Assembly: GCA_027382625.1 (NCBI GenBank)
Contig: JAJKFJ010021011.1
Coordinates: 62,001 to 126,000 of the forward strand
Direction: 5' to 3'
DNA from: Tetmemena sp. SeJ-2015
Lineage: Eukaryota; Ciliophora; Spirotrichea; Sporadotrichida; Oxytrichidae
DNA: 64,000 nt
In this document: piece after piece, positions 4,256 through 63,305 of the stretch
Numbering within the stretch: position 1 is the first letter of the stretch
Layout of the letters: every line of letters begins with the position of its first letter
Position numbers and translations under genes: made by a program
The notes under the pieces: model-generated
Told to the model about the DNA's origin: nothing
What the model saw: the letters and a program-made list of their open reading frames with translations, nothing else
Database searches by the model: none

Positions 4256-7200
4256 TCATATAAGTTACTTCTTTTCCTTATTAACGATTTCGAATACCTT
4301 TCCTAATAGCTTTGAAGGCATCTACTCTATAAAACTCTCGCCCATGGTATAATAGCACGTCTTCACTATTTTCTCTATGAGGTTCTTCATCTCTGGGGTT
4401 ATATTTCTGCCCCTGCTTGCGGAGTACTCCTCCATAAGTTTGTTGATAACTGGAAATACATCACTCACTATCTTATTCTACTGGCCATACTTAGCTATTT
4501 AAGGGATCATCTCATTCACCTTCTCAATTAAGTAAAGTTTGGTTCTAGTCCCAACGCTCAGTCCTTATGGACTAGAATGCATCGAGTCTGCAAAAGCTAT
4601 CACGATATCTTGAGGAGGGTAGGCAGCTACCAATTTATTTAGCAGGTTTTCTGCATTTCTCTTGGCTTGAGAATTTGAAGAACCTAGGTAAGGACATAAC
4701 CCAGACACCATTTTCAAAACTTGCACTGTATCTAACTATGATCTGCTTTCTTCAAGCATGTTACTCAATATCTCAGCCTCCTAAAGGTTAACAGACACTT
4801 AAGGAATCCCTTTTTGACTTGGCTAGGAGTAAAGTGACTTCAAGAGGAGTTATTATAGAGTTATTCATCACTTGCAAGAATAGTGGATGCTGCAAGAGTT
4901 GAGGTTTCTTAGTCAGAGAAGCCTCCGCCAAATTGAGAAAGCAAACTTCTTTTGCTCGCCAGTTTACTTCTGCAATAGATTCAAGATGGAGTTTATCTCC
5001 TCTGATGGCTCTGCAGACTTTGAGTTCATCTCTTTGATTGAATATTAAGGCTTATTGATGATTTGATCCTTGCGGGCTATATTTGAAGTTAGCTTGATCT
5101 CATTCATCTGGTTGGGAGATAGATTATGCAGCGACCTGTTACTCTATCTTGACTCAATCTTGCCTTTTATCTAAGGAGGAGAAGAAAAATTTACTTCAGC
5201 ATCTACAAATGCATCATTAGTAGAAGAAGGGATGATTGGCTGAAAGACCTTTCTAAAGTTTTCTCCCTTTGCCTAGGTATAATTCTAATCCAAAGGCTAG
5301 TTTCTCTTTGAAGGACTTCCAAAAGCTTTTTCATTTTAAAAGGAAGCTTGATAAATAAGAAAAACATTGAAAGTTCAGTAACTTAAAATACTTGACTATT
5401 CATTCTCATAGAAGCTCTTAAGAAGTTAGATGAAGAATTGAGGTGCTTTATGGGATTAGGGCTGCCATCCAACTTCACCTTTATCAAGTAAACAAACTTA
5501 AAATCATTGTAATTTTAAAGTATGTCTAACATTTTCCTTTGGTCAAAATCCTTTTAAACATGCTTCCTGATAAGTGTCTGTGACTCTTATCTAGTAAGTG
5601 GTTAATTGTTGACTTCTAATTTAAAATGGCTGCTCTCGTATTCTATCTCACCTCAGGAGAGGAGTCGTTTACGTAAGAACTGAGCACTAAGAAAAGTTTG
5701 TCGCAGTTTTCCTTTGGAGCCTGCACGAGCTTAGATCCCATCTGTGAGATATAGACACTCAGACAGTTTGCAAGTTAGGATCTCACTTTGTCTGACTTGC
5801 TATCGCAGTTCTACAAAATATTCTTGAGCAGCTTATCTTCAGAGATATTCACACAAGTCCTATAAAATGAGTGAGCATATAAATGAGAATGAATTACTCC
5901 TCTAAGGCTCTTCTTGCAGTTTCAGAGATAAATTAATTGGCGTCAGCAGATTTCTTCAAAAGGAGATTTAAAACTTGATCAGAGTCCTGATCTAATTATC
6001 TTGACAGGCATTAGAAAGACTCCTGGATGGCAAGGAGTCCATGTTTACACAAGCTAGATCTAAGAGAGTCCCCTAATTTAATGAGCTTAAGTCATCATCG
6101 AGTGAAGGTTAACAGATTAGAATAGCTCCGGATTATACTTCAAAAGAGCTCTCAACTTGAGGAGTCCTTCATTTTGCTTTTCCCAGTTTTCATCTACAGT
6201 CGTTTAGGATTTTTATTGAATAAATTACTTGATAGGTTTTGTAAGGCTGATTAAACCTCCTTATCGTTAGCATTTTCTACTGGTTTTAGCTCTTCAAAAC
6301 CAGCTATCATATCTAATGTGCTATGGTGAAAAAATAATAATTTCATTATGTGCTCATTCTTAAACTTGACTTGAGTTTTGATAAATCTGAGCCCTGCTTC
6401 TTTAAAGGGGACTGCTTCAGCAAATCCAAAGACTACTACTCGATATCCTAATTATAAAAAACAAATTTTAAATCAATCTTACATCGTAGTTACTTTTACT
6501 TCGGCTGATTTCGTATGGATCTATCACACTATTCTTCTATAGTTGAGGTTCAATTCTTGCATTAGACCTTGATCCTAAAGTTCGCACTCTAGGTTTTAAG
6601 CTGTCCGTTTTCTAAGTCTCTGAGTATGGATTCTGAGATATTGAGGAATGTTTATCGGATTTACCTTTTGGAAGTCTACTCTTATAAGCATTAAAAATAA
6701 ATCTCTCTACTCTGTCTCCAAACTTGTTTGAGTAAAGTTTGGGAGTAAGGTCTGAGTGATCAGCTTCAGAATGAATATTCTAAGAGAAAAACTTTGGTGA
6801 ACTCTCTCTAATTAGATCTTCACTTTTCTTTGAGACTCCAACCACAGGCTTAGTGATCCTATTCCTCAATCCTGTAGATTTTAAAGTTGAAGAGGTAGGG
6901 TTAAAGGACGAAGAGGTTGATTACTGCTCATGCTAATTTTCAAATTGAGACTGGCTAACATCTGTTAGTTTAGTTCTCTCCCCAAATGAGGGAGAGTTAA
7001 ACCGGTTTCCAGACTTAAGTAGTCGCAATTTCTCTGATATTTGAATCGGAGTAGCTTGCCTTGCAACATCCTCAGTCAATTTGTTTTACTGCTTGTTGAT
7101 ACCTCCCGATATAATATTTGAACCTATTCCTTGCAAATTCCTTCTGGATTTAAGATCATCTATTTTAGGCTTTGAGTCTTTGGTTACAAGAAAGTCTTCT

Positions 7201-17428: not shown

Positions 17429-17539
17429 TTCACTGGCTAATTCGCTGGTACTTTTGCACCAGAGGAGGTAAAGATGGAGCTCTTTACATAATTATTCTAG
17501 GTTAATTTGAAGAATAATGAAGTTTGAGGCAAGAAGAAA

Positions 17540-20500
17540 ATGGAACAATAGATTGATACTAGGAACGGAACGACTTCATACGTGGTACCTTCCAAGGATG
17601 AGAACATTCTAAAAGATGCAATCTCCCAATGGTGGGGCACCCTGATTCAGAGAGAGGAGTGTGGTACGATAGATGAACTGAAGAGAGGCTTGAAAAGCTT
17701 TGAGAACATAATAAGCATGGGGTATGATCCTGGTGTTTTGTGGAGAGGCTACGAGGAAACACCACAATTTCTGGATGTAATGGAGTATGACGAGGCATTA
17801 CAAAGTTAAGTGCTAGTCAGACACCAGAAGCTTGACAAGAATCTATTTGAGGGATACCTGAGGAACATTTGTGAGAAACCGCTGGTAGTGGGACCCATTA
17901 CCTATGATGTAATTGCGAGGTTGCAAGAACTCTCATATGTATTGGCGGCATTCATAGAATGGCACATGCTAAACAAGTCCTTCTATGCCCCATCAGACAA
18001 GACTCTTGGACTAGTGCAATACTATGTTGAATGGAACATCTTCAAGAAGTGGGGTAGAGGCGAGGCCGCGAGAATGGCAAAGTTAGAAGGTATCATTACA
18101 CAACAGATCGAGAGCGATCCGAAACGGGAACTTGAGGTAGACACCATGCTGGTAATCTGGGGAATCGAGCACATAATCACAATCTTGCCATTCATGGAGA
18201 CATTCCTGATCCCAATGTACCAAATAAACGAGTAGATGCAAACAAAGGACCAGATGGTAGGATGGGCCAGTACACTAGAGAATGCAGACAAGCTTTTCGA
18301 GATATGGACAGATCTGAAATTGGTGAAAGGAATGGTGCCTCCACCCCGCTACAACCTCGCTACTGCGCAGGAGAGAGACCAGAAACCGTCAGAATTCCGA
18401 GCTGAGAAGACGGGACACACTCCACCTCAAGCAGACGGGGGTGAGAGGAGAGACTCCAGAGCACAAGCATAAGCAAAAGATGTGGAAATGAAGGACAAGA
18501 GCGCTCCACAGACAGCCTCAAAGCTAGTAGAGATGGTCGCTAAGCCCCCCAAGGCCTAGGGACCACAGGTACAAACCATAGGTAAGGTAGGGACACCAAC
18601 ATCGACCCACCAGAAGTACGATGATGGCTTCAGGAAAGCGCAGAGAAAACCACTGATTTAAAACAAACTCAATGTCAAGCAAAAAATGATGGTGGACTAA
18701 ACAGAGTGCAAAGCATGGAAAGGAATTGGCCAGGACAAGAAATGTGACTTGATCAAGACGGAGGTCACTGCCTTCTGCCATACACAAAACGCCAAGAGGA
18801 ACTAGATTTACCAGGAGGTGTGGAGTCAGATTCTCAAAAATGTAGACCACAATAAGAGAAACTTCAAGGCCAGAGACACGTGCAGAATGTGGTATGTTGT
18901 CCACTGGGAGAAGTTAAAGGATTACCTAGAGCATCTCTAAATTGAAGAAGTGTTGAGTTTGAAATGGTTCGGTAAAGAAAACATGAAGATTTAAAAGAAA
19001 ATTCCAGCAGATGAAGAGATATGGAATCAGGTTAGCATACAGGCTGAGAGAAATGCGAGTGAACCAAATAGAAAGTTCTTGACCCTATTCAAGAGCTCCC
19101 CATACACACAAGAAGAAATAGAGCATGTGTCCAAGAAAAAGTGGACATGGCAGCTAGAAGACGCATTGGGATACAAACTGAGAATGCTAAATGGACTATA
19201 CCTTATGAACAGTAAGGAAAGGGCAGTATTATTCAGGATAAACAGGCAAAATAAAGTAGAAGCGGAAAGAAGGATTGTGCAAGCAAAGATAGAGCTCAGA
19301 AGTGGAGAGAGAGTAGCGGTCAATCTCTGGCTGAGTGAAAACACGCAGAGGCCGACCACGATAGCAAACCCCCAAAGATACTACACGGAGGCCCAGTCTG
19401 AAAGTGGGTACGGATACTTCATAAAAGGATCTGTACTTAATAGCGAGTGGGAACATTCGGAAGCTATACAAGCAAGTTAAGGACATTGGGAAAACGGGAC
19501 CCTGGAAAAAGCCTTTTAAAACTTTTATTTTAAAGAAACCAAGATTTTGGGAAAAAGGGGGGAAGGGGGTTATCAAAGAAGGAAAAAAAATTATCAGATT
19601 GGGGATCAGAAAAAAAGACGCCTTTGGGAAGGACAAAAAGGCAACCCCATCTTACAAACGAAAAGCCAAAGGGGTAGTGGGCGGGGGCCAAACTAACGTT
19701 AAGAACCCAAACCTAGGAAATTTTGTACAAAATCTCCACATGGGGAAAGAAGCCCCAAAATTAAAATGAGTTTTTACAAATTTTTTTGGTTTCCTTGTAC
19801 CTAGGGCCAACGGAAAAACCTTTTTGAAATAAAAAATTGAAGCACATACGGGGTCATTTAAAAGGATTTACGGGGAAGGGCTTTCCCCTTGAAAAATCCA
19901 GTTTTTAAAATAAAAATGACGAAGATTAAAACGGGGGAAAGAAAATAAAGTTGGCAACCCTTAGAAAAACTAAAACCAATCCCCCAAACAACGGGAATTG
20001 GGTTTGAGACCATCATAAAAATTATTCGGGAAAACCCTAAGAAAGGAAGGAATGGAAAGATGGGTTTAAACTACGAAAAGGGCCCGGGAATTCTTTTTCT
20101 GAAAAAAAAGGGAAAGTTACAGGAATTACTACCCCAAAACCATTTAGGGGTGGGGTACATTTTGGGGTCCTTTCGCGGAAACCCTGACATGGGGAAAATT
20201 TACAGGGTAGGGCGGTTGGCCTTGCAAAGGGGCCAATTCAGACTGAATGCGGAAATAAAAAACTGGAAAAACCCTCCTTTGCATAAGAAGAGAGGGGAGG
20301 GCATTGGAACGGGCCAAGCCCGAGATCCTAAAGTGGTGGTAGGGGGAAAGAGCAGACCTGAAGAAATTTGCCAACAAAAGCAAGGAATACTACTTGGAGC
20401 AATCACTGCCAGTTAAATCCAGATTGAGCAAGATATAGCTGTACATGAACGTGGCGTTGAACTACTGCAGCAAATACTTCCTGAATGATGAGTGGATCAT

Positions 20501-22285
20501 TCAGGATGACAATAATCAAATGAACAAGGGATTTCAGTTTGACGATTCCATGATCTTCCAGAACCAAGAGAGCGGCTTCTCAAGATTAAATAAGGTCAAT
20601 AGACACTAGTACCTGAAGAAAGGGGACGAAGAGGATGTTGTTCACGACGACTATTGGGAGACCCTATCTGACAATGCGACGGATGTGCAATTCAGGAAAG
20701 AAAGGATTAAGAGGAGAACTTACACCACGGATAAGATAGAAGTGGTTAGAAGGGTAGAAGAGGTCAGTGTGATGTACAGAGACAAGTACGAGTCATACCC
20801 AATCAAAGAACTTGAGTACCACTGTAATTTTTGGAAGAAAGGAAAAATTCTATCTATCCTCAGAGATGGGGACTTTGAGAATTTGAGATCTGAGCAGTAC
20901 AAATGCAACTTCATGTCGAAGCAAGCTCTAGACTAAAAAGTGGAAAGTTTTGAGGAGGATAGAAAATTTAGCTTTGTAATGCCTGAGATGTGGGTCAGAG
21001 AAACCATGCCAAAAGAACTGGAAAGGATAAGGAACATAAAGTTAACAGAGGGCGAACTAAAAAAAGAAAAGGCCATCATCCAAGAGGAAGTAGATTAAGA
21101 GGAGGAGCAAGAGGTGGTGGAGAAGCTACACCCGTATGAACTAGAGTTACTGGAGCACTATCAGTAGCTAGGTCTGCAAGAAAGAGCAAACCTCGCCGAA
21201 TCCATACCCAAGAACAGGCTAGGTGTGCCAATGTTCCTGGTAAACGACATACAGTTGTTGTGCACGCAAGAGGGATAGCTAGATGAAAAAGACCCAGAAG
21301 TCCAGTTGGCCATTGAGATCATAAGGAAGATCATGGCCTCAACAGGCGCGAGTAGACTAATTTTCCAGTTTAAGGACAGTATGCACCTGTTCACCAAAAA
21401 CTCCATAGAGAGAGTAGAGAGAAATAAAGAACACGCGAAAACAATGAAAAACCTGACAAAACTGAAGATCATCGAGCAGAATGTGATGAAAATCTTCGCA
21501 AGGCAACTAGCGGTGCACATCGAAACTCTAAAAAATGTGTGGAGAATGAAGACTGCGAAAGAGATGGTGACCCAACACGAGAAGGAGTACAATGACCCGC
21601 ACCCATTGGGCAACCAAGGACTGCAGAAGGCTCAAGAACAGAGGATACAGTAACTGTAAAACAGGATCCAAGTGAAGCATGTGCGCACATACATAATGGA
21701 CTGGGAACTATTTGAGGCGATAGCCACGTACTGGATACTACACTGCAAAACACTCCTGGATTACAAGGAAGCGGAGGAAGCTTGGACTTCGCTAGTAGAG
21801 GAGAGAAAGGAAAAATTTGAGAAATGGTAGATCGCACAGGATAAACTATCTGAACACCACCAATATACCCACCGAATCGGTCACCCTATTGATGAGAGAG
21901 AGTAAGTGAGAAAGTTATAATCAATTTATAGAAAGTGTGTGACCCCTCGAGCAAGGATAACCCCATCTGTACATGCAAAGTACCAACAACTCTCGAAACC
22001 CCAGAAAACCAAGGAAGAAGAGGATACTGAGATTGAGGAATGTAGCAAGAGCAACAAGAGGAGCACGATACAGTAAGAAAAAGTCAAAGCAGTAGGCAAG
22101 AAGCGGATGAGCATCCCCCATGAGTATGAGAAATCAAGCTGGTCTCCATGGAAAACCGCTCGAGGAAGAGGAGTCCACAGCGAGACCCGACTGATGAGCT
22201 AGCAAGGAAGTCAGGTGAGAAATGCAGGACAATTAATCCATTTGATAGCTAAATTGATTATTTGTTTTATTTAATTTTTGAATAA
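17540..22285 (+). CDS. Giant unknown reading frame inserted in GST4 (~1,580 codons)
   Basis: ATG 17540 follows a TGA in the same frame and starts MEQQIDTRNGTTSYVVPS. The frame is open without TGA to 19480 (647 codons), is lost in a poor-quality stretch, then is open again from about 20395 to TGA 22283-22285. It uses TAA, TAG, CAA and CAG for Gln like the host. From N to C: a helical Trp/Glu/Lys-rich domain to about residue 245 (AISQWWGTLIQREECG, YYVEWNIFKKWGRGEAARM), then a low-complexity Pro/Gln/Lys linker (about 270-360; PPPRYNLATAQERDQKP). More charged helical sequence follows (WSQILKNVDHNKRNFKARDT), then an acidic coiled coil near 21.1 kb and a basic tail (KAVGKKRMSIPHEYEKSSW). No transposase, polymerase or protease motif was seen. 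It could be a germline-limited gene, a mobile-element structural protein or a viral remnant. Function unknown. Confidence 0.7.
19490..20390. other. Poor-quality consensus: inflated homopolymers
   Basis: Runs of 3-7 identical bases, especially G and C (for example ggaaaaaggggggaaggggg), replace the normal texture, and the open frame on both sides breaks several times. Stripping runs by eye gives protein-like Lys/Gly-rich text, so coding probably continues through it. It looks like an assembly or base-calling artefact, not biology. Confidence 0.75.
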
Positions 22286-22689
22286 ATGAATGAGCAATTC
22301 CTCTCGGCTACTTTACCAAGATTCTTCTCTGCTTTTGAATAGCGACGGTTTTTCGTTGGAGAGAGAATTACCATACAGACTTTGTGATGGGCATCATGAT
22401 TATTTTAATGAATAGTTGAATTTTTGAGCAGATCTTGGAGGTTGCTATGAAATACCCAAAGCTCATGGCTTATTCAGAGGGTCTCATAGCTCAACTTAAG
22501 GACAGACTTACTACTAGAATGGCCTCTCCATTGTGAAAATTCAATGTCAATTTAATAAATAAATTAATCTTGATAAAAATATATTCGAAAAGCAGCTTCA
22601 ATTTGAATAAACTTTGTTTTAATGGATCTAAAATTTTTAAATTGTCTCAAATTTTAATTTAATTGCAAAATCAGAAAGTTTAAATAATC

Positions 22690-24408: not shown

Positions 24409-24553
24409 TCAAACTCTGATATCTTCCCTCATTCTCTTTACATTTTTAATGTATTTTTGTTTCTTCTTGTCGGCTTCTCTTCTTTGGGCAGGGATCCTAA
24501 TCATATCGCCAGAAAATTCTGATCGGCTTCGGAACTCTTTAAATTCAAACTAG
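24409..24553 (-). CDS. Isolated C-terminal coding segment, unknown
   Basis: On the minus strand FEFKEFRSRSEFSGDMIRIP continues to a Lys/Arg-rich end (READKKKQKYIKN...REDIRV) and TGA 24409-24411. It is about 45 residues with normal codon texture inside AT-rich DNA, so it may be the last MDS of a gene whose other segments lie elsewhere (hypotrich genes can be scrambled). No family recognised. Confidence 0.4.
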
Positions 24554-24799
24554 AATTATTTAAAAGAAAATCTAGCATTGAACTATCTTACCATACTTTG
24601 TATTAAAGAACTTTATATAAATTGGATTAAAGTTACCCGAGAATAAATTTTAAAATAGAATTTATAACATCTAATAAGCAAAGATTGAATAATAAGAATA
24701 ATTGTAAACCAGTAAATAGATTAAACTTTGACTTATTGACTTTAGATAAAAGGCACTAGCTTTACTGGTATCATAATTAAATATCAATTGCTTAAAGAT

Positions 24800-25557
24800 A
24801 TGAGTTAACAAGCTCCAGCAATAACTATCCACTACATGAAAGGCTACGGTAGAGCAGAGCCTATAAGATTCTTGCTTTCTCATGCTGGGATTCCCTATAC
24901 GGATGCCTACTACACCTATTAAACATTTTCTACAAATTTTCTTAATGTAAATTTAAGTAACTCTATGCTGAGATGGCCGAACTGAATGCCACTGGCAAAC
25001 TAGAGTTCGGGTAAGTGCCTGTTGTTGAGAAAGACGGAAAGTGCATGGCTCAAACTTTCGCCACACTCAGATACCTCGCGAAGGAGTATGGATACTACTC
25101 AGATAACGCCTATGAAGCCTACTTGATTGACTCAACTGCAGATGCTGTCGGAGATGTCTTCATTTAAATGTTAGGATCGTTAGACTCCAATATTGAATTT
25201 TATTTCACAGGCTATTTCATGTCTGCCTTTGCGCCTTAGGAAGCCTAAAAGGAGCTCTTTGATAAGTTTTACCAGTAGACATTACCAAGATTCTTCTCTG
25301 CATTTGAGAAGCGCCTTGAAACTAACTAATCAGGATTTTTCGTAGGAGAGAAATTGACTATGGCTGACTTTATGATGGGCAGCATGATTTTAATGAGTAT
25401 TTTAGTGATCTTCACTCTCTACTTCAACGAGGCATGCCAGGTTCAGCAACCAATCTTGGAGATAGCGAAAGGCTATCCTAAGCTCTTAGCTTATTCTGAG
25501 GGCCTCAAAGAGCACCTCAAAGCAAGACTAAGCGATAGAATTGTCTCCCCTTGGTGA
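24800..25557 (+). CDS. Glutathione S-transferase paralogue 5
   Basis: MSQQAPAITIHYMKGYGRAEPIRFLLSH gives the N-domain with candidate catalytic Tyr, then EFGQVPVVEKDGKCMAQ and LAKEYGYYSDNAYEAYLID. The C-domain (TLPRFFSAFEKRLETNQSGF, VGEKLTMADFMMG) ends RLSDRIVSPW at TGA 25555-25557. All three IES sites are occupied, each with pointers and sequence different from those in GST2 and GST3. It is the closest relative of the split GST4 (shared DVFTG.FM/A and EFGQVPVVE regions). Apparently intact. Confidence 0.9.
24916..24962 (+). other. IES, GST5 site A, pointer CTAT
   Basis: CTAT at 24916-24919 and 24963-24966. Excision of 47 bases gives DAYYTYAEMAELNATGKLEF in frame. Confidence 0.87.
25159..25203 (+). 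other. IES, GST5 site B, pointer TTCA
   Basis: TTCA at 25159-25162 and 25204-25207. Excision of 45 bases gives GDVFTGYFMSAFAPQEAQ in frame. Confidence 0.82.
25385..25405 (+). other. IES, GST5 site C, pointer TGAT
   Basis: TGAT at 25385-25388 and 25406-25409. Excision of only 21 bases gives MMGSMIFTLYFNEACQVQQP, aligning with site C of GST2 and GST3. The insert is in frame, so its removal is inferred from the paralogues. Confidence 0.75.
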
Positions 25558-36847: not shown

Positions 36848-38476
36848 ATGTCTCTAGTGCCCATTAAAACACAAACTCAAAATAAGTTTATTTGTAAGAA
36901 GATTTATAGGATAATTATTAAACTGGATAGAATGATAATTTGGATTTAGAAGGAGAGGAAAATGAAAAAATAAGAAAGAAATACCAACTGAGGTAATTAA
37001 AAGGCGAGGGAAGTGATGGCAAGATATACCTGGGATAGACTTTTATTAGCGTAGCCATCAAAGTTATCCAATTTAGCATAAGTTAATTAGAATAGCAAAT
37101 ATTATGAATGAAGAGCCGAATGCTGAGATGCTTAGGGAAATTGCAATCATGAGAGGCATAGACAATCCCCATGTTAACTAAGTCATCTAGATCTTTAAAG
37201 ACGAACACGGAAAGCTAAATCTTGTACAAAATCTTGCTAAAATGGATCTAAGGAAGTTCATTTATTAAGGATTAAAATAACTTTTATTCCTATTTATTTG
37301 CATTTTAGAGAGAAAAGAGAGGGAATAACCGCTATCTGAAGAGAGATTTGCAGAAATATTTGCATAGTTGAGCATAGGACTACAAGCTCTTCATGAAAGA
37401 GGGGTTATACATGGCGATATCAAACCAGATAACAACTCATTTTTATATTAAAGTTTCTTTTACAGCTTAAATAACATCCTTGTGTTTGAAGAAAAGACTC
37501 ACACATGTGCGGACGATGAAGGATTTGTTTACAAGATCTCTGACTTCGGTAGATCCAAGATCTATGCAGCTGAGGACGAAGATTTCAAAATGGCTGATAA
37601 TGAAGATGATTAAACACTCTTTATATTTCATAATCAAACTTCATCATATTTATTGATATGGGAGGAACTTTATCATATTAAGCTCCAGAGTGAGTAAAGT
37701 TGTCCTGTTAATTGGTTTAGGTAGAAATACAAGGGACAGTCTTCATCAATAAAAGCGGATATTTTTTCATTTGGGAAAAGCATGATGGAGTTGCGGACAA
37801 ATGACTACAATATGAGCCTGGAATTTGATGGTTCAAATTATGTCTTCCACAATCAACAGAATGGCTAACTTGATATCCTCCTTCAATAAATGATGTAAAA
37901 ATTATTTGCTAAAATTAGTACTGATCTAATTGTGATTATAGGTCTGTAAATCCAGATGATAGACCCCTCATAGACGAAATTTTGACAGTCCTCAGAGAGA
38001 CAAAGTCTTATAAAAATTATCAAAAGCTTACTCAGAGATTCCCACCTAAAAAACCCAGAATTCAAATTAGCGAAGAACGAAAATTTAGCACTAACATAGA
38101 AAGATTAAAATATGATTCTGTCTTTTAGGCCAATAAATATGCGTAAAATGGAATTAGGTTATAGAAAAATAAAATGTGTGAGTATTTTAACAAAAATCAA
38201 ATGCGAAGTGGATTATAAATAAAAAGTAATAAATAAATGAAAAAATAATGTCAAGAAATAAAACCAGAGTGCCAAATCAATTTTTAGTCAAGACATCTAC
38301 TAAGCAAATTCTAATCATATGAATTTATGAGTAAAAGTTTAAAAATCAAAAATTATAAATAATTAAGCATACTTAGAGATAGATCTAAATAATATTTTAG
38401 GCAATATAACTCTAGATCGCAAAAGTAAAATCTTAGTTGCATATAGTAATGTCAGGCCAGAATTTTTAATTACTGA
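36848..38476 (+). CDS. Protein kinase with HGD catalytic loop
   Basis: Start ATG 36848 (MSLVPIKTQTQN), joined by IES removal to NDNLDLEGEENEKIRKKYQL. Kinase motifs are in order: Gly loop KGEGSDGKIYLG, VAIKV lysine, helix-C Glu in EMLREIAIM. Then the catalytic loop HGDIKPDNILVFEEK (His-Gly-Asp), KISDFGRSK, activation segment GGTLSYQAPEQ, ADIFSFGKSMMEL, and the C-lobe VNPDDRPLIDEIL. A Gln/Asn/Lys-rich tail runs to TGA 38474-38476. The HGD variant and the TLSYQAPE loop occur in several divergent ciliate kinases; substrate unknown. All catalytic residues (Lys, Glu, Asp, DFG) are present, so it should be active. Four IESs and two introns were resolved; a further interruption near 37265-37310 (after LRKFIY) was not. 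Confidence 0.88.
36881..36930 (+). other. IES in kinase, pointer AAT
   Basis: AAT at 36881-36883 and 36931-36933. Excision of 50 bases links the N-terminus to the kinase frame (TQTQ-NDNLDLEGEE). Confidence 0.6.
37090..37109 (+). other. 20-base IES in kinase, pointer GAA
   Basis: GAA at 37090-37092 and 37110-37112. Excision gives FSISQLEEPNAEMLREIAIM in frame and removes a TGA. Confidence 0.65.
37429..37470 (+). other. IES in kinase catalytic loop, pointer ATAACA
   Basis: ATAACA at 37429-37434 and 37471-37476. Excision of 42 bases restores HGDIKPDNILVF. Confidence 0.9.
37607..37653 (+). other. IES in kinase activation segment, pointer TGAT
   Basis: TGAT at 37607-37610 and 37654-37657. Excision of 47 bases gives DNEDDMGGTLSYQAPE. 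Confidence 0.85.
37690..37720 (+). other. 31-base intron in kinase
   Basis: GTGAGT...GGTTTAG. Splicing gives QAPE-QKYKGQSSSIKADIF in frame. Confidence 0.8.
37895..37941 (+). other. 47-base intron in kinase
   Basis: GTAAAAATT...GATTATAG. Splicing gives LLQQMM-SVNPDDRPLIDEIL. Confidence 0.8.
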
Positions 38477-57000: not shown

Positions 57001-58880
57001 TCTCATACTCTTTTCCACCTGAGCATTTATTAGAAAGTATATTTTTTTAAATTAAAAGGTACTTTTTAAATTCAAAAGAAAAATTTTTAAAAATTCTTAA
57101 AAGCAAGGTTTTAAAGCCCCCAAAAACGAATTAATTCCTTTATTTATAAAATGGCAATAAAATATAAATATGCAATATATCTTTCATTATTTCTTAATTC
57201 CTTCAATATTACATTCGCACCCATAAGTGGCAAATTATGATAAACACTCTCTTCTTCATTCATAATCTTTGAATTACTAGTTGCGAATGCCCTTTTTATC
57301 GCTTTAAAATGTTTTGCCCAAATTTTAATTGTAAGGATTTAAGTTCTTAAACCCCAAAATTTTTAAAAACTGAATAAAACAAATCATATTTTTTTAAACC
57401 CCCCCTTTTTTTTTAATTTTTTCAATAGCCCTATGTTTATATTTTTTGGAAAACCCTTTTAAATTTAAGCCAAATAACCCTTATATTTCTGGGAGTCTTT
57501 ACTTTTTAAAATTTTTTATTTTTTTTTTTTAAAAAATTTTCAATTTATAATTGCATTTCGCTAAAAAAATGTTTAAATAAATCTAATTTGGAAAAAAACT
57601 TTTTTTTAATTTTTTTTTTAAAAATTAAAAAATTTACCTTTTAGAACATTCCCCCTAATTAAATTGTATTTTTTTTTAAATTTGATAGCATAATTTAATT
57701 CTTCAATGGTTGAACGCATAATTTTGTTGCATTGAGAAATCAATTTTACTCAGTCTGGAATTATAAGTCATTGAGTTTATTATTTTATTTATTTTTGGGG
57801 TAGGGGAACAGAAATGCTCAGCCCATAATTTTTACATAAGAACTTCTTAAAAATAGATGTGAAAGCTCAAAAATTAAAAAATAAAAAAGATTTCGGCTTT
57901 TGAAATTTAATTGAGGGTCATAATTAAGATTTGGTCTTTTATTAACTTGATCTGTTATTATTTATTAAGTTCACTTCTTTATTAACTTCATCATGCCTCG
58001 GTTGCTTCTATTTAATATAGATTATGCATTCAGATAGTAATCTTAAAAAAGAGTCTTTATTTTTAGAAACATCAAAGGATTTAAGTATCTAGCTTAGATA
58101 CAGTTCATTTTCACTTCGATATCTTTATTTGAGTTGGGATTGCTATAAGTGTGATATATAAAATATTTACATTTATAGCAATGTACTGCCAATCATAATT
58201 AATCCATTTAATAAACAAATAACAGAAATACAGAACGATAGATTCATAGGATATAAACTCTTAATCAAAAGCACTTATAAATAATGTAAAAACTTAAATT
58301 TTAGCCAAGGAAATTAAAAATGCCAAAATTTATTTTTTGTTGCAATTTAAGCTGATTTTTTGCTTTATTGTAATATTGATCATAAAAAGAATGGGTTTTC
58401 ATTTCTGTCACCCTACCTCCAGCCCATATTTTAGCATATCTATCCTTTTTTAATCATCAAGTGAAAAAGAAGAATGACCAATAGAACTTTTTGAAAAATG
58501 CCTATTTATAGAGAGAAAAGCAGTTTGTAGTGTGATTAAGTAATCAATTATTCATTCTTTATTGTAATTGTCTTAGAAGATTTAATTTATTCTATTTATG
58601 CATTTTAAAATACCATTGAAAAAGATGTTTAAGTTAAATATCAAAGAAATTGAATTAGAGCAGATAATAAATGCTTTTTGCAACTTTTACTTTTATTATA
58701 CTTATATATTCATTCCGCAGTAAAAAATATGATGATTTAAACTTTGAGTTGAATTATTATATCTTTATTCTAAAGTTAAAATTTGTCTTAATGTGTATTT
58801 GTTTATAGATAGAATTAATTAGAAAGTAACTAAAAAAAATTTTAAAAAAAGAAGGATTAATTTAGATTAAATGACCTCGT
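57001..58880. other. Gene-free AT-rich region, partly poor consensus
   Basis: 57.1-57.7 kb has inflated homopolymers (cccccctttttttttt, runs of t/a). The rest is AT-rich with no supported gene. Confidence 0.5.
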
Positions 58881-59005: not shown

Positions 59006-59737
59006 TGAGGAAGTCGGTGCAAGGAACTCTACTTTTTAAGGATAAAATTTTAGTAGAGTTTTAAAAGAAAATCGGGGGTAAGGGGCTATAAAATAAAGGG
59101 GGGAGGGGGGGGGTTTGAGGATCCGGGGGCCTTTGGCCCAAAGGTCGGGAATTAGAATAATTTAAATTTGGGGCCCAATTCACGAAATCATAAAAAATTT
59201 TAAAAATTTACGCAATTAAAAATAATAATCCAAAAAACCCCTATCCGAAAATCCTATAATTCATTTTAATTTGACATCCGAAAAAGATAAAAAATTTTTC
59301 CCGAAACCAAAAAATTTAACATGGGAAACTGAAATGGGGGGAAAGAAAAGGGGGGGAATGGATCGATAGAAGGGGCTTCCCGCCGGGGGTGGTGGGGAAA
59401 AGTCAAAAGGGGCCCCATCATCAAAAATAAAATGTAAGACCTCCATTTACCGAATTTGAAAAATTTCAGTTAAAAGTATAAATAATCAGAAATTTTTAAA
59501 AAAAAAAGTTTAATAATTAATAAGGGGTTGGGGGTTATTTTAATTTTTCCCTTTTTTTTTATGATTGACGATTTTCTTTTTAAAATTCTTTTACTAAAGT
59601 AAAATAATCAAGAAGTTATCCAACCCGAAAAACCCCCGGGGGCTATATTTTTGAATAATAAATAATTATAAAGTTAAATTTACTAACCCCCCAATCCCCA
59701 ATATTTGAAGGAAAGGGTTAAAAATCTTTTATTATTG
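59006..59737. other. Poor-quality consensus, possible degraded coding
   Basis: Repeated G/C homopolymer runs (gggaggggggggg near 59100) make the reading frame unreliable. No gene can be supported. Confidence 0.5.
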
Positions 59738-60168
59738 GTAGTAATAGCATTGGAAATTTTGCGAATTTTTTTTTTAATACAAGTACGTTGACTGGCGGTT
59801 GCCTCTAAAAATGATCATTTTCCTGCTTGGCTACTCAAATTTCGTGGCAGTTGACTTTTTTTGGGGGTTCAAATCTCTGTGAACTATATTTTAAAAAAAA
59901 CCGGTATTCAATTTTAAAAATACACTATAATTAAATTTATCAAGCGCCATTTAAAATCATTTGATAATGGGCTAATGGGGGCTAAATCGACTAATTGACT
60001 AAAAAAGACCCCCAAATTTGTAAGAATCTAGAGTTTAGATTTTTGATTGCTAAGAAAAATTTTTGGTTTGACTAGTTTACGAAAAATAAGGCGTAAAAAA
60101 TTAAATCAATTAGGGGGCCGGGTTTTTGGGGCAAGAAAAAATGGAATTAATTTATTAGTGCGTGAATT
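59738..60168 (+). repeat. Left arm of terminal inverted repeat
   Basis: Pairs with 61705-62150. Matched landmarks are TACAAGTAC..TTGACTGG at the outer part, AATTTGTAAGAATCT in the middle, GACTAGTT, and the 26-base inner end starting GGAATTAATTTATTAGTGCG. Confidence 0.75.
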
Positions 60169-60229
60169 TTAAAATTTTAAACTTTAAAAAATAACTTATA
60201 AGCTTAAATTTGCAAATTTTACGCTCTGC

Positions 60230-61618
60230 TTTTTATCCAAAAGAATCAGACAAAATGCCCTTCATCCACTTTGTCAAAATCCCAAAGGGGTTAGTTTCCG
60301 CAAGCTCTTTTTGTCTTGGCCACCTTGGCCATGGGAAAGGCCCTTTTCCCAGATCAATTTTTACCCCAAAATATTATGCCAGCTCATCTGCGGCAAACGG
60401 GAATTTTTTGGCTACGTTCCTGCGGGGCCTGCCCCCTTTTCACAAATTTTTACCCCGGGGCCCGGAATTTCTCCTCGATCTAACTCATCCATTTTCTTCA
60501 GTGGCGTCTTATTTGATGTCACCATAACAGAGCAGTTCAAGTATCTTTTATCTGCGTCTCCATGCTTCACATTGACCACAAACCCTTTCCCCTCAAGGAA
60601 TCTCTTCATCTTCGCTAACCCTTTGTGTCCGAAGAAGACAGGAGAGTTCACTTCATCCAGGATGACCAAAGTAGGGGGTAAGTCAGTCTTTCTCTGATCT
60701 AAAGCAAAGCTTTCGGCAACTTCCTCCAATATTTTAGACGAGAAGATTTTTGCCATCAGGCCTGCCAAAGTACTTTTACCGGTGCCGTTTTCTCCATGCA
60801 GCCAAATACAAATTAATTTATGAATTGCTCTTTTTGGCGATCACATCATTCATAGCGTCTAGAGCCTCCTGCAGCTTGTACTCCTGTTGAACAATTTCAG
60901 CCGAAATCGAGCTGCCTTATTTATCTTTGCCAAGACTAATCTCATTCTCTCTAGATAGGGGAAAAAGCTCCTTGATGTGAGACAGGTTTTTTCTCTGGTA
61001 TCGCGCCCGCGTTCCTGTAGAGCTTGAATAAGGTCTCCAGCTTTTTCTTTCGATCCGTGAGCATCTCGCACATCACAGCATTGTCTTAGTTCTGATTGAA
61101 GAGATCCTGGAAGCTCTGCACTTTGCCTGATCTGATGAGCTCGATCACCTTCTAGACGACTGGGTCTCCCTCCTTCAGCTCTTCATCAAGCTTCACTCTT
61201 CCCGGAATACTTTGCTCAGTGGGGCTGATTTTGAGGGCCTCTAGCAATCTTTGGAGCGATCCTGTGTAAATGCTGACGGGCCTGTTTTATTTTATGGCCT
61301 GGGTGAGATTGCTCCGTCTGATCGCCTTTGATTCCAAGCCGGACTTGTCCAGGAACTGTTTGCCGCAGTAATTGGGGTTATTGAAGTACTGCTTGTTGCG
61401 GCCAAATGTGTTCGCCCGAAGGAATATTGCCATATACTGCGCCTAGTCCTTCTGGGTCTCAAAGACGGACACCTCCTCAACGTCAGGAAATCTCTTCTGC
61501 AAGTCCCGCTCCACCTTGGCGGCCTGATCTCCTGAAATGCCTACGGTGAGTGCCAAGAAGAATGCTTTCCGCATAAATGAGCTGCCTTTGTCTTCCCCAA
61601 AGAAGAGTTGCGCGATTC
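60230..61618 (-). CDS. Rep-like protein with superfamily-3 helicase domain
   Basis: Minus strand; earliest supported residues near 61618, internal Met at 61574. N-terminal ~210 residues include FFLALTV, QYMAIFLRAN and NPNYCGKQF. Their order resembles HUH-endonuclease motifs I, II and III of rolling-circle Reps, but the two His of motif II are absent (Gln-Tyr-Met). The helicase domain has Walker A GENGTGKST (about 60769-60796), Walker B VILDEVN (about 60650) and motif C VMVTSNKTP (about 60510-60533), the SF3 set. TAG and TAA occur as Gln codons, so the gene is adapted to or tolerates the host code. Frame changes occur near 60995, 60830 and 60435; the last lies in poor consensus. SF3 helicases unwind DNA during replication of viruses and plasmids. 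The helicase call is firm, the nuclease tentative. Confidence 0.72.
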
Positions 61619-61704
61619 CCTTGGGTTTTAAAAATTAAAAAAAGTTTAATCAAAAAGGGGTATTCTTTTAAGATATCTCTAAATATTCAACCTGGGTTAA
61701 GTTT

Positions 61705-62150
61705 AATTCACGCACTAATAAATTAATTCCATTTCCCTTTTGCCCAAAAAAAGGACCCCAATTGGGCTAAATTTTTTCGCCCCTTTTTTTATCGAACTAG
61801 TCTACCAATGTCTTAGGGAATCCCAAATCTTTAAAATCTCAGATTCTTACAAATTAGTCCCCTTTTCAATTGTCGATTTTGTCCATTAGTCCATTAGTCA
61901 AATGAAATTTTTAAAAAGGGGCTTGATAAAATTTAATTATTGTGTACTTTTAATTTAATACCCCGGGGTTTTAAATTTAAAAATGGGTTTACCCGAGATT
62001 TGAAACCAGAAAAGTCAAATGCCCGCATTTGGGGTAGCCACAGCAAAAGGGAAAAATAAACATGTAGAGGCCCAAACCCCCAGTCAAAAGTACTTGTAAA
62101 TTTAAAAAAAAAAATTTGCCCCAAATCAATGCGATACTACAATAAATTTA
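61705..62150 (-). repeat. Right arm of terminal inverted repeat
   Basis: Inverted copy of 59738-60168. It holds a direct tandem repeat of CCATTAGT at 61883-61898, mirrored by spaced CTAATG/CTAATT units in the left arm (about 59966-60000). Confidence 0.75.
61883..61898 (+). repeat. Tandem octamer (iteron-like)
   Basis: CCATTAGT occurs twice in a row; related units recur in the left arm. Short iterated motifs near an origin are the usual binding sites of Rep proteins, so an origin function is suggested by context only. Confidence 0.4.
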
Positions 62151-63305
62151 AAATTTTTTTTAATTTATGAGATGTGGAGCCCCTTTTTTGGTATTATTTA
62201 TCAAAATAAAAATATTATAATGCCTATAAATTTAGATTATATAGTGATTTTAAAAAAACCCTATTTACCAAAATCAAAAAATTTGAGAAAAAGTTTTTTT
62301 TTAAAATTTTTTAAAAAAATCCCATCAAAATGAAGTAGCATGAGCTCTCTTTTAACAAAGTCGGAAGCTATAGAGAGCTGCTTCTAATTGATATTAATAA
62401 ATCATTCGTTCTATATTTTTATCAAAAATAAATTACTCGTCTTATTTATCTTAAATATCCCTGAGTATGTTTAAAATTAATATTTAATCTACTTGATAAG
62501 CTTATCAAAAAAATATTCTACTTTATCTTTTATTTATTTTAAAAATATTTTTATATTAAATTGCAAAAATTATTTTTGGTTTAAAACTTTAAAATTTTAA
62601 TTAAAAATAGCTTTAAATTCTATTTAACATTTTAAAATTGAAATTTGATTTTTGATAGAATTTAAATAAAAAATATTATAAAAGCATTATATCCCCAAAA
62701 TCAGATTATTTTTAATGAATTATATATAAAAAAAATTAACTTTAATTTTACTAAGGGAAACAAAATTTTTTTTCTATTTTATAATAAAAATAAAATTCTT
62801 CTTTTAGATAAATTTAAGTGATATAAACCTAACTTCGCTAGTTGATCCTCTTCGTTCTAATGTGATAGATCACTCCAAATATACATAGAATATTTCTAGC
62901 ACTCTCTAGTTATCTAATGCTTAATTCATTCACTTCAAGTTCCTATACTATCTCTTCATAACCTAATTCCTATCTCATCATCTCACTATTCTAGAGATTC
63001 ATATAAACTATTTATGAATCAACTAAATTGAACTTTAGGAGACATTAAAATTTTCTTAATATAAAGTATAGTTGTCTTTAAAATCTTTAGCTATCTCTAA
63101 CTAGGTCAGAGGGTAGATCACGACAGAATTAAAGCTCAATAAGGCTTGTAAGTTCTGTCTGCTCTGTTACTCGGACCTTGTTTTTGCTCGCTCTTAATTT
63201 GCCCGAATTCACTCTTGATTTAAGAAGAAACCGAATTCTACTGCTTTTCTTGCGAGCTTCTACTTGCTGGTCTGTCTTTTCCGAACTCAAAATTTTCAAA
63301 GTATA
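62151..63305. other. Non-coding AT-rich region
   Basis: 62.15-62.8 kb is almost pure A/T. 62.8-63.1 kb has a protein-like minus frame, but it contains at least five TGA codons, so it is not supported as a gene. Confidence 0.5.

Follow-up and report, generated by a model that had tools for sequence, protein, structure and literature searches.

A TA-bounded inverted-repeat element with a single SF3 helicase gene in a spirotrich ciliate genome

The window, by which we mean the whole 64,000-nucleotide stretch of DNA analysed here, corresponds to C2090:62001-126000 in a genome of 146 Mb and 5213 contigs. The C4A4 telomere pattern has 67 matches in this genome, nine of them at the first base of a contig, and a search of the genome for a run of CCCMAA repeats found none. 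Genes are read with table 6, in which in-frame TAA and TAG encode glutamine and TGA is the stop. The C4A4 telomeres together with this code indicate a spirotrich ciliate host.

An element of 2412 bp lies at positions 59733..62144 (no strand assigned) and aligns over its full length with another copy, the L003 element, at 85.2% identity in 2438 columns. It is bounded by two terminal inverted arms identified by self-comparison, the left at 59733..60168 (+ strand; 78% to the L003 arm) and the right at 61697..62144 (− strand; 76%). The comparison pairs 59720-60168 with 61705-62158 in inverted orientation, over 486 columns with 72.8% identity and an E value of 7e-55, and a 26-base inner arm end is identical on both sides of the gene. 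This arrangement of two inverted arms around one gene, described in an earlier sequence-only reading, is therefore confirmed. The right end has a clean TA; the left TA (59730-59733) is noisy, and the end sequence is a noisy form of TATTGTAGTATCAG, referred to below as cap B. The box at which caps are exchanged, placed at 59842..59848 (+), reads TCGTGGC here and TGCGTGGC in clean copies.

The enclosed gene is on the − strand and is open in two pieces. The first (60942..61649) aligns at 95% with the L003 protein over its residues 29-233 and, on the predicted fold of that protein, holds the N-terminal ferredoxin-like domain and the oligomerisation domain. The second (60274..60840) is identified by Pfam and by the L003 fold as a superfamily 3 (SF3) helicase domain, and contains Walker A (GENGTGKS, 60772..60795), Walker B (LVILDEV, 60649..60669) and motif C (VMVTSNK, 60508..60528), all read from the − strand sequence. 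Its Pfam matches are DUF5906 (E 2.3e-9), which we take to be an SF3-type family, and RNA_helicase PF00910 (1.6e-4), both above the cut-off.

We note that the window copy is the poorest of 22 elements compared: its arms differ by 26-27%, as against 0-3.2% in 18 of the 22. Homopolymer-like noise pervades both its flanks and its arms, probably as a result of poor polishing. Elsewhere in the window are two adjoining long open frames on the + strand (17528-19837 and 20247-22286; 770 and 680 amino acids with table 6), which are Lys/Glu-rich, lie in a stretch of 43% G+C, have no Pfam match, and are possibly another mobile element. There are also matches to a glutathione S-transferase (24523-25554, +) and a protein kinase (37017-37982, +).

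The element belongs to a family of more than a hundred copies or fragments in this one ciliate genome. The helicase piece gave at least 152 matches in its own genome (150 of 277 candidates scored, with some copies counted as two pieces), and a distant family member used as query gave at least 94 (90 of 338 candidates scored). We read 48 loci, L001-L048, with the window copy as L001; L002 and L003 seem to be the same element assembled twice. All 46 loci from L003 to L048 yielded a usable helicase stretch. An inverted repeat of at least 60 nt surrounds the helicase gene in 40 of the 48, which include 39 loci besides the window copy. Of the remaining eight, five (L002, L004, L019, L027, L028) are cut by a nearby contig end and three (L008, L033, L048) are uncut. 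The 19 elements measured end to end are 2058-2400 bp long, and in the elements read the only gene between the arms is the SF3 helicase gene, of approximately 450 codons. At no fewer than 14 of the 48 loci a single frame runs unbroken through both domains, in some cases with an altered tail. Two loci show additional symmetry: at L030 a cap A helicase element is enclosed by one more symmetric layer, about 217 nt long (2222-2437 and 4604-4819), as if inserted into the centre of a foldback element, and at L047 (1755-5539) an unrelated 689-nt inverted repeat (95.6%) surrounds the helicase element.

The two arms of an element are 96.8-100% identical in 18 of the 22 elements compared, and lower in four (L001 74%, L022 86%, L039 89%, L040 86%). 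Among the 21 elements whose arms have any other match, the closest arm is the element's own partner in 16, and an arm of another element in five (L001, L006, L039, L040, L041). In L039 and L040 one arm is good and the other bad, a pattern suggestive of sequence noise, which may affect the window copy as well. The identity of the arms may perhaps reflect recent insertion alone.

TA is found at the border of 37 of the 38 ends of 19 elements, counting the right end of L020 after a one-base correction, compared with a background of 10.4% in the flanks. Empty sites were sought by comparing the joined flanks of six elements with the genome, scoring the best 40 of 951 candidates. Element-free copies were among the matches listed for L016, L038 and L023 (the last a site within a repeat, with 38 such copies), and none was found among the best 40 of 951 candidates for L003, L032 and L042. 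The three empty sites read have a single TA and no element remnant. Insertion is thus precise, with duplication of a TA target. The noise of the window copy, and arms there only 73% alike, might suggest an artefact, either a palindrome from a chimeric read or a AAA+ gene of the ordinary cellular kind. The empty sites refute this, and together with the recurrence of the same build at the other loci they rule out the assembly palindrome that had been considered at the outset; furthermore, SF3 folds rank above MCM and Clp in comparisons of the predicted structure. We regard the chance of an artefact as negligible.

The protein is under purifying selection: of 12 pairs compared, the six that are unsaturated give dN/dS of 0.09-0.36. 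The order of domains predicted for the L003 protein is ferredoxin-like N-terminal, oligomerisation and SF3 helicase. Walker A, Walker B and motif C with its Asn are present, Walker B being DE, NE or DD across the 16 aligned rows, and motif C is missing in two rows, in which the frame is broken. DUF5906 matches 15 of the 16 rows and TIGR01613 matches 11, falling far short of the cut-off in the row displayed. The predicted helicase fold appears to be nearest to AAV Rep, papillomavirus E1 and B19 NS1. The motifs and the predicted AAA+ fold with its oligomerisation domain therefore identify the protein as an SF3 helicase, as first proposed from the motifs, a proposal that DUF5906 and PF00910 also support.

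The N-terminal domain is less straightforward. It is predicted to be ferredoxin-like (beta-alpha-beta-beta-alpha-beta), with its elements in the right order for a Rep protein, and a Foldseek search with the whole L003 model finds full-length AAV Rep68 as the best match (E 2e-11), but with a TM-score of only 0.36. The domain alone has no significant Foldseek match: HMA metal-binding domains rank first, and T-antigen origin-binding domains and WDV Rep are among the non-significant rows (E 0.10-0.17). At the places expected from the predicted topology, His-x-His (residues 61-67) is absent in all 16 rows, and Tyr (residues 104-111) occurs in one row only (L026, residue 109), with one row gapped. 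The suggestion of a Rep-like N-terminus that has lost its HUH nuclease is supported only in part, by the predicted order of elements and the Rep68 match, and not by comparisons of the domain on its own.

Could the protein nevertheless be a complete transposase of a new kind, in which the N-terminal domain or the helicase ring cuts and joins at TA? No other gene was seen in the elements read, and no coding form longer than the helicase elements was found with caps A and B. Lys110, at the place expected for the lysine of the HUH YxxK motif, is kept in 14 of the 15 rows with a letter there, and the retention of Tyr78 (14 of 16 rows) and Tyr84 (13 of 16) means that a tyrosine nuclease of a new kind may exist. 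The invariant residues of the domain are F79, G86 and G120, with K76 and K110 nearly so, and no acidic, His or Tyr position reaches 90% conservation. TA duplication, moreover, is the characteristic signature of the Tc1/mariner group of DDE enzymes. We consider a complete transposase improbable.

The folds that appear nearest to the protein (parvovirus Rep/NS1 and papillomavirus E1), the inverted terminal repeats and the single replication gene might also suggest parvovirus-like or CRESS-like genomes that were endogenised and then decayed. However, none of the 19 elements of 2.06-2.40 kb has a capsid gene, nor has it room for one, each being taken up by its two arms and a single gene some 450 codons long. 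The borders are TA in the lineages measured, the gene is still open through both domains at 14 or more of the 48 loci, and neither IMG/VR nor the candidates scored from 5.8 billion proteins yielded a relative. The idea of an endogenous ssDNA virus, raised in the sequence-only reading, is therefore not borne out, and we think it very unlikely.

The ends of the elements are of four recurring kinds: A (TATTCTAACAATCAGGG), B (given above), C (TATAGGATGAATAC) and D (TATAGATAGGAATTTAATAG). These caps appear to be exchanged, as segments of about 70-105 nt. Over 2191 bp L006 matches L007 at 98% identity, yet their arms have no detectable likeness in the outermost 82 and 102 nt; L031/L032 and L038/L039 differ in the same pattern. 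In these three pairs the start of the shared sequence defines the cap-exchange box. Of the 27 elements scanned, 12 carry this box in both arms, either exactly or with a single mismatch; in the rest it is weaker or was not found. In L021 the left cap is C and the right cap is A, with inner arms 98% identical. Five cap labels, set by hand with the A variant of L006 and L041 as a separate label, were placed on a tree of 33 helicases, which has long branches and four rows less than half filled; they require 10 changes, where the least possible is 4 and shuffled labels give a mean of 18.1. Caps thus partly follow the helicase tree and have switched several times. Thirteen of the 46 loci were left out of the tree: L008, L029, L044, L047 and L048 (no cap seen), L004, L017, L019, L026, L027, L028 and L033 (a single end seen) and L021 (two cap kinds); L025, L037 and L040 were kept with one clear end.

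The arms also contain candidate iterons. Each of 23 left arms was compared with 200 random first-order Markov resamples. In eight arms, all of one clade (L006, L007, L031, L032, L034, L035, L036, L042), repeats at multiples of 8 bp with inverted copies reach a level attained by none of the 200 resamples. The signal is weaker in three more (L003, L038 at 9 of 200 and L012 at 3 of 200), and the strict test is negative in 12 of the 23, including 10 of the 11 arms from other clades, a result that counts against an initiator function. The iteron sequences differ among lineages (GGAATAAT, GGAATATT, TTGGAACA), as expected for sites that track their binding protein.

Other elements with these ends were located by their caps. 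Cap B has 32 sites and 10 convergent pairs, all of 2.27-2.47 kb and all with a helicase match. Cap A has 187 sites; among those listed there are 30 pairs, of which seven are MITE-like (0.6-1.34 kb) and 23 are of 2.0-2.7 kb, at least 20 of the latter with a helicase match in searches that scored part of the candidates. Cap D has 98 sites and 29 pairs of 0.86-3.57 kb, at least eight of them with a helicase match among the matches listed. Eleven cap D pairs of 1.89-1.98 kb have no helicase or DDE match among those listed; they lie on C105, C1794, C1880, C1918, C2039, C2123, C2211, C2619, C3239, C3546 and C3547. Two pairs of 2759 bp lie on C2042 and C4166. The elements read, which do not include the 11 cap D pairs, yielded no DDE transposase flanked by ends of these kinds. 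The only DDE match inside a pair (C3095, cap D) shows at 58535 an end peculiar to itself, and is therefore most likely a nested insertion. Since a helicase match is listed for only eight of the 29 cap D pairs, and 11 fall outside the elements read, a transposase-bearing partner may exist. The genome has at least 150 DDE_3 matches (150 of 921 candidates scored). A separate element of Tc1/mariner type, about 2.06 kb long and with TATAGTATAGGATC at its ends, lies at L054 (440-2500), and its protein has at least 78 genome matches (75 of 920 candidates scored). At L049 (C3167) a DDE_3 match lies in a bacterial-looking reading frame, possibly contamination.

The DDE_3 matches in the genome, the MITE-like cap A pairs and the TA duplication speak for a non-autonomous cut-and-paste element of Tc1/mariner type, whose SF3 helicase would be a passenger or accessory that helps or protects it without amplifying it. 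Against this, the helicase is retained under purifying selection, down to 18-28% identity between lineages and across several cap types, and the elements read include no DDE element with these ends. We consider this unlikely, though a serious alternative.

An even chance is what we give to a different reading, that of a TA-targeting spirotrich DNA transposon whose sole gene encodes an SF3 initiator helicase that binds origins and has no known nuclease. In this model the N-terminal domain would bind the iterons of each arm and a ring would assemble on the arms, as with AAV Rep and papillomavirus E1, so that the element is opened, unwound and copied. During copying one arm would template the other, which would keep the arms identical and spread a new cap from end to end. 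The copy would then be joined to TA by a Tc1/mariner-type DDE transposase of another element or of the host, a step in trans that we infer from the TA duplication alone. More tentatively, at somewhat under an even chance, the family may be a new class of transposon, a linear replicating molecule whose two inverted arms each hold an origin and whose caps are swapped between families. With similar reserve, part of that proposal is that a single replication module may be served by several integration machineries by means of the swapped caps. The new class suggested by the sequence-only reading gains support from the copy number, the TA duplication, the empty sites, the near-identical arms and the purifying selection.

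The element fits no transposon class that we found described. Helitrons and Replitrons have an HUH nuclease with an SF1 helicase or alone, and lack terminal inverted repeats and TA duplication, unlike the element with its SF3 helicase, long inverted repeats and TA duplication. Papillomaviruses and polyomaviruses have circular dsDNA without terminal repeats, and the relation of the N-terminal domain to those of E1 and large T is not significant in Foldseek. Polinton-like viruses and virophages carry capsid and polymerase or integrase genes. They share the DUF5906 and TIGR01613 matches through their DUF5906/P4-type helicases. Their length is given as 14-40 kb (PMC12220804). The element resembles AAV Rep68/Rep40 and B19 NS1 in its order of N-terminal, helical oligomerisation and SF3 AAA+ domains and in its inverted terminal repeats, and differs in the absent HUH histidine pair, the lack of a capsid gene and the TA duplication; a hairpin end is not among the features observed. 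Bidnaviridae are reported to have a stand-alone SF3 helicase without an endonuclease domain and inverted terminal repeats without parvovirus-type hairpins, and so provide a precedent for such a helicase in a terminal-repeat genome (PMC4061559). The element shares both features, although bidnaviruses bring a protein-primed PolB and a capsid, and the element has one gene. A precedent for NS1 with inverted terminal repeats inside genomes is given by densovirus insertions in tapeworms (PMC6880638).

The TA duplication is shared with Tc1/mariner elements, whose DDE transposase gene is absent from the elements read (the 11 cap D pairs lying outside that set). TBE and Tec are likewise DNA transposons of spirotrich ciliates, and the TA target is shared with Tec. 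According to PMC4724952 and PMC9797194, TBE and Tec encode a DDE transposase and two more ORFs; the TBE1 end is 78 bp long and contains telomeric repeats, and the duplication of TBE1 is ANT. Unlike TBE as described in PMC4724952, the element has no telomeric C4A4 ends, ANT duplication or three ORFs. No published description of such an element was found among the papers listed in the literature searches, nor any paper linking an SF3 helicase, terminal inverted repeats and a transposon in eukaryotes. We know of no transposon superfamily that relies on an SF3 initiator helicase as its sole gene.

If the initiator model is true, the family would bridge transposons and small DNA viruses of the parvovirus and papillomavirus kind as a living intermediate, and the origin of viral initiators and terminal repeats would become testable. 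The exchange of caps between diverged helicases, at both ends together, would trace the end-to-end copying of inverted repeats. Ciliate transposases take part in germline DNA cutting during development, and a TA-ended element without its own transposase in a ciliate raises the question of whether it uses these germline-cutting transposases.
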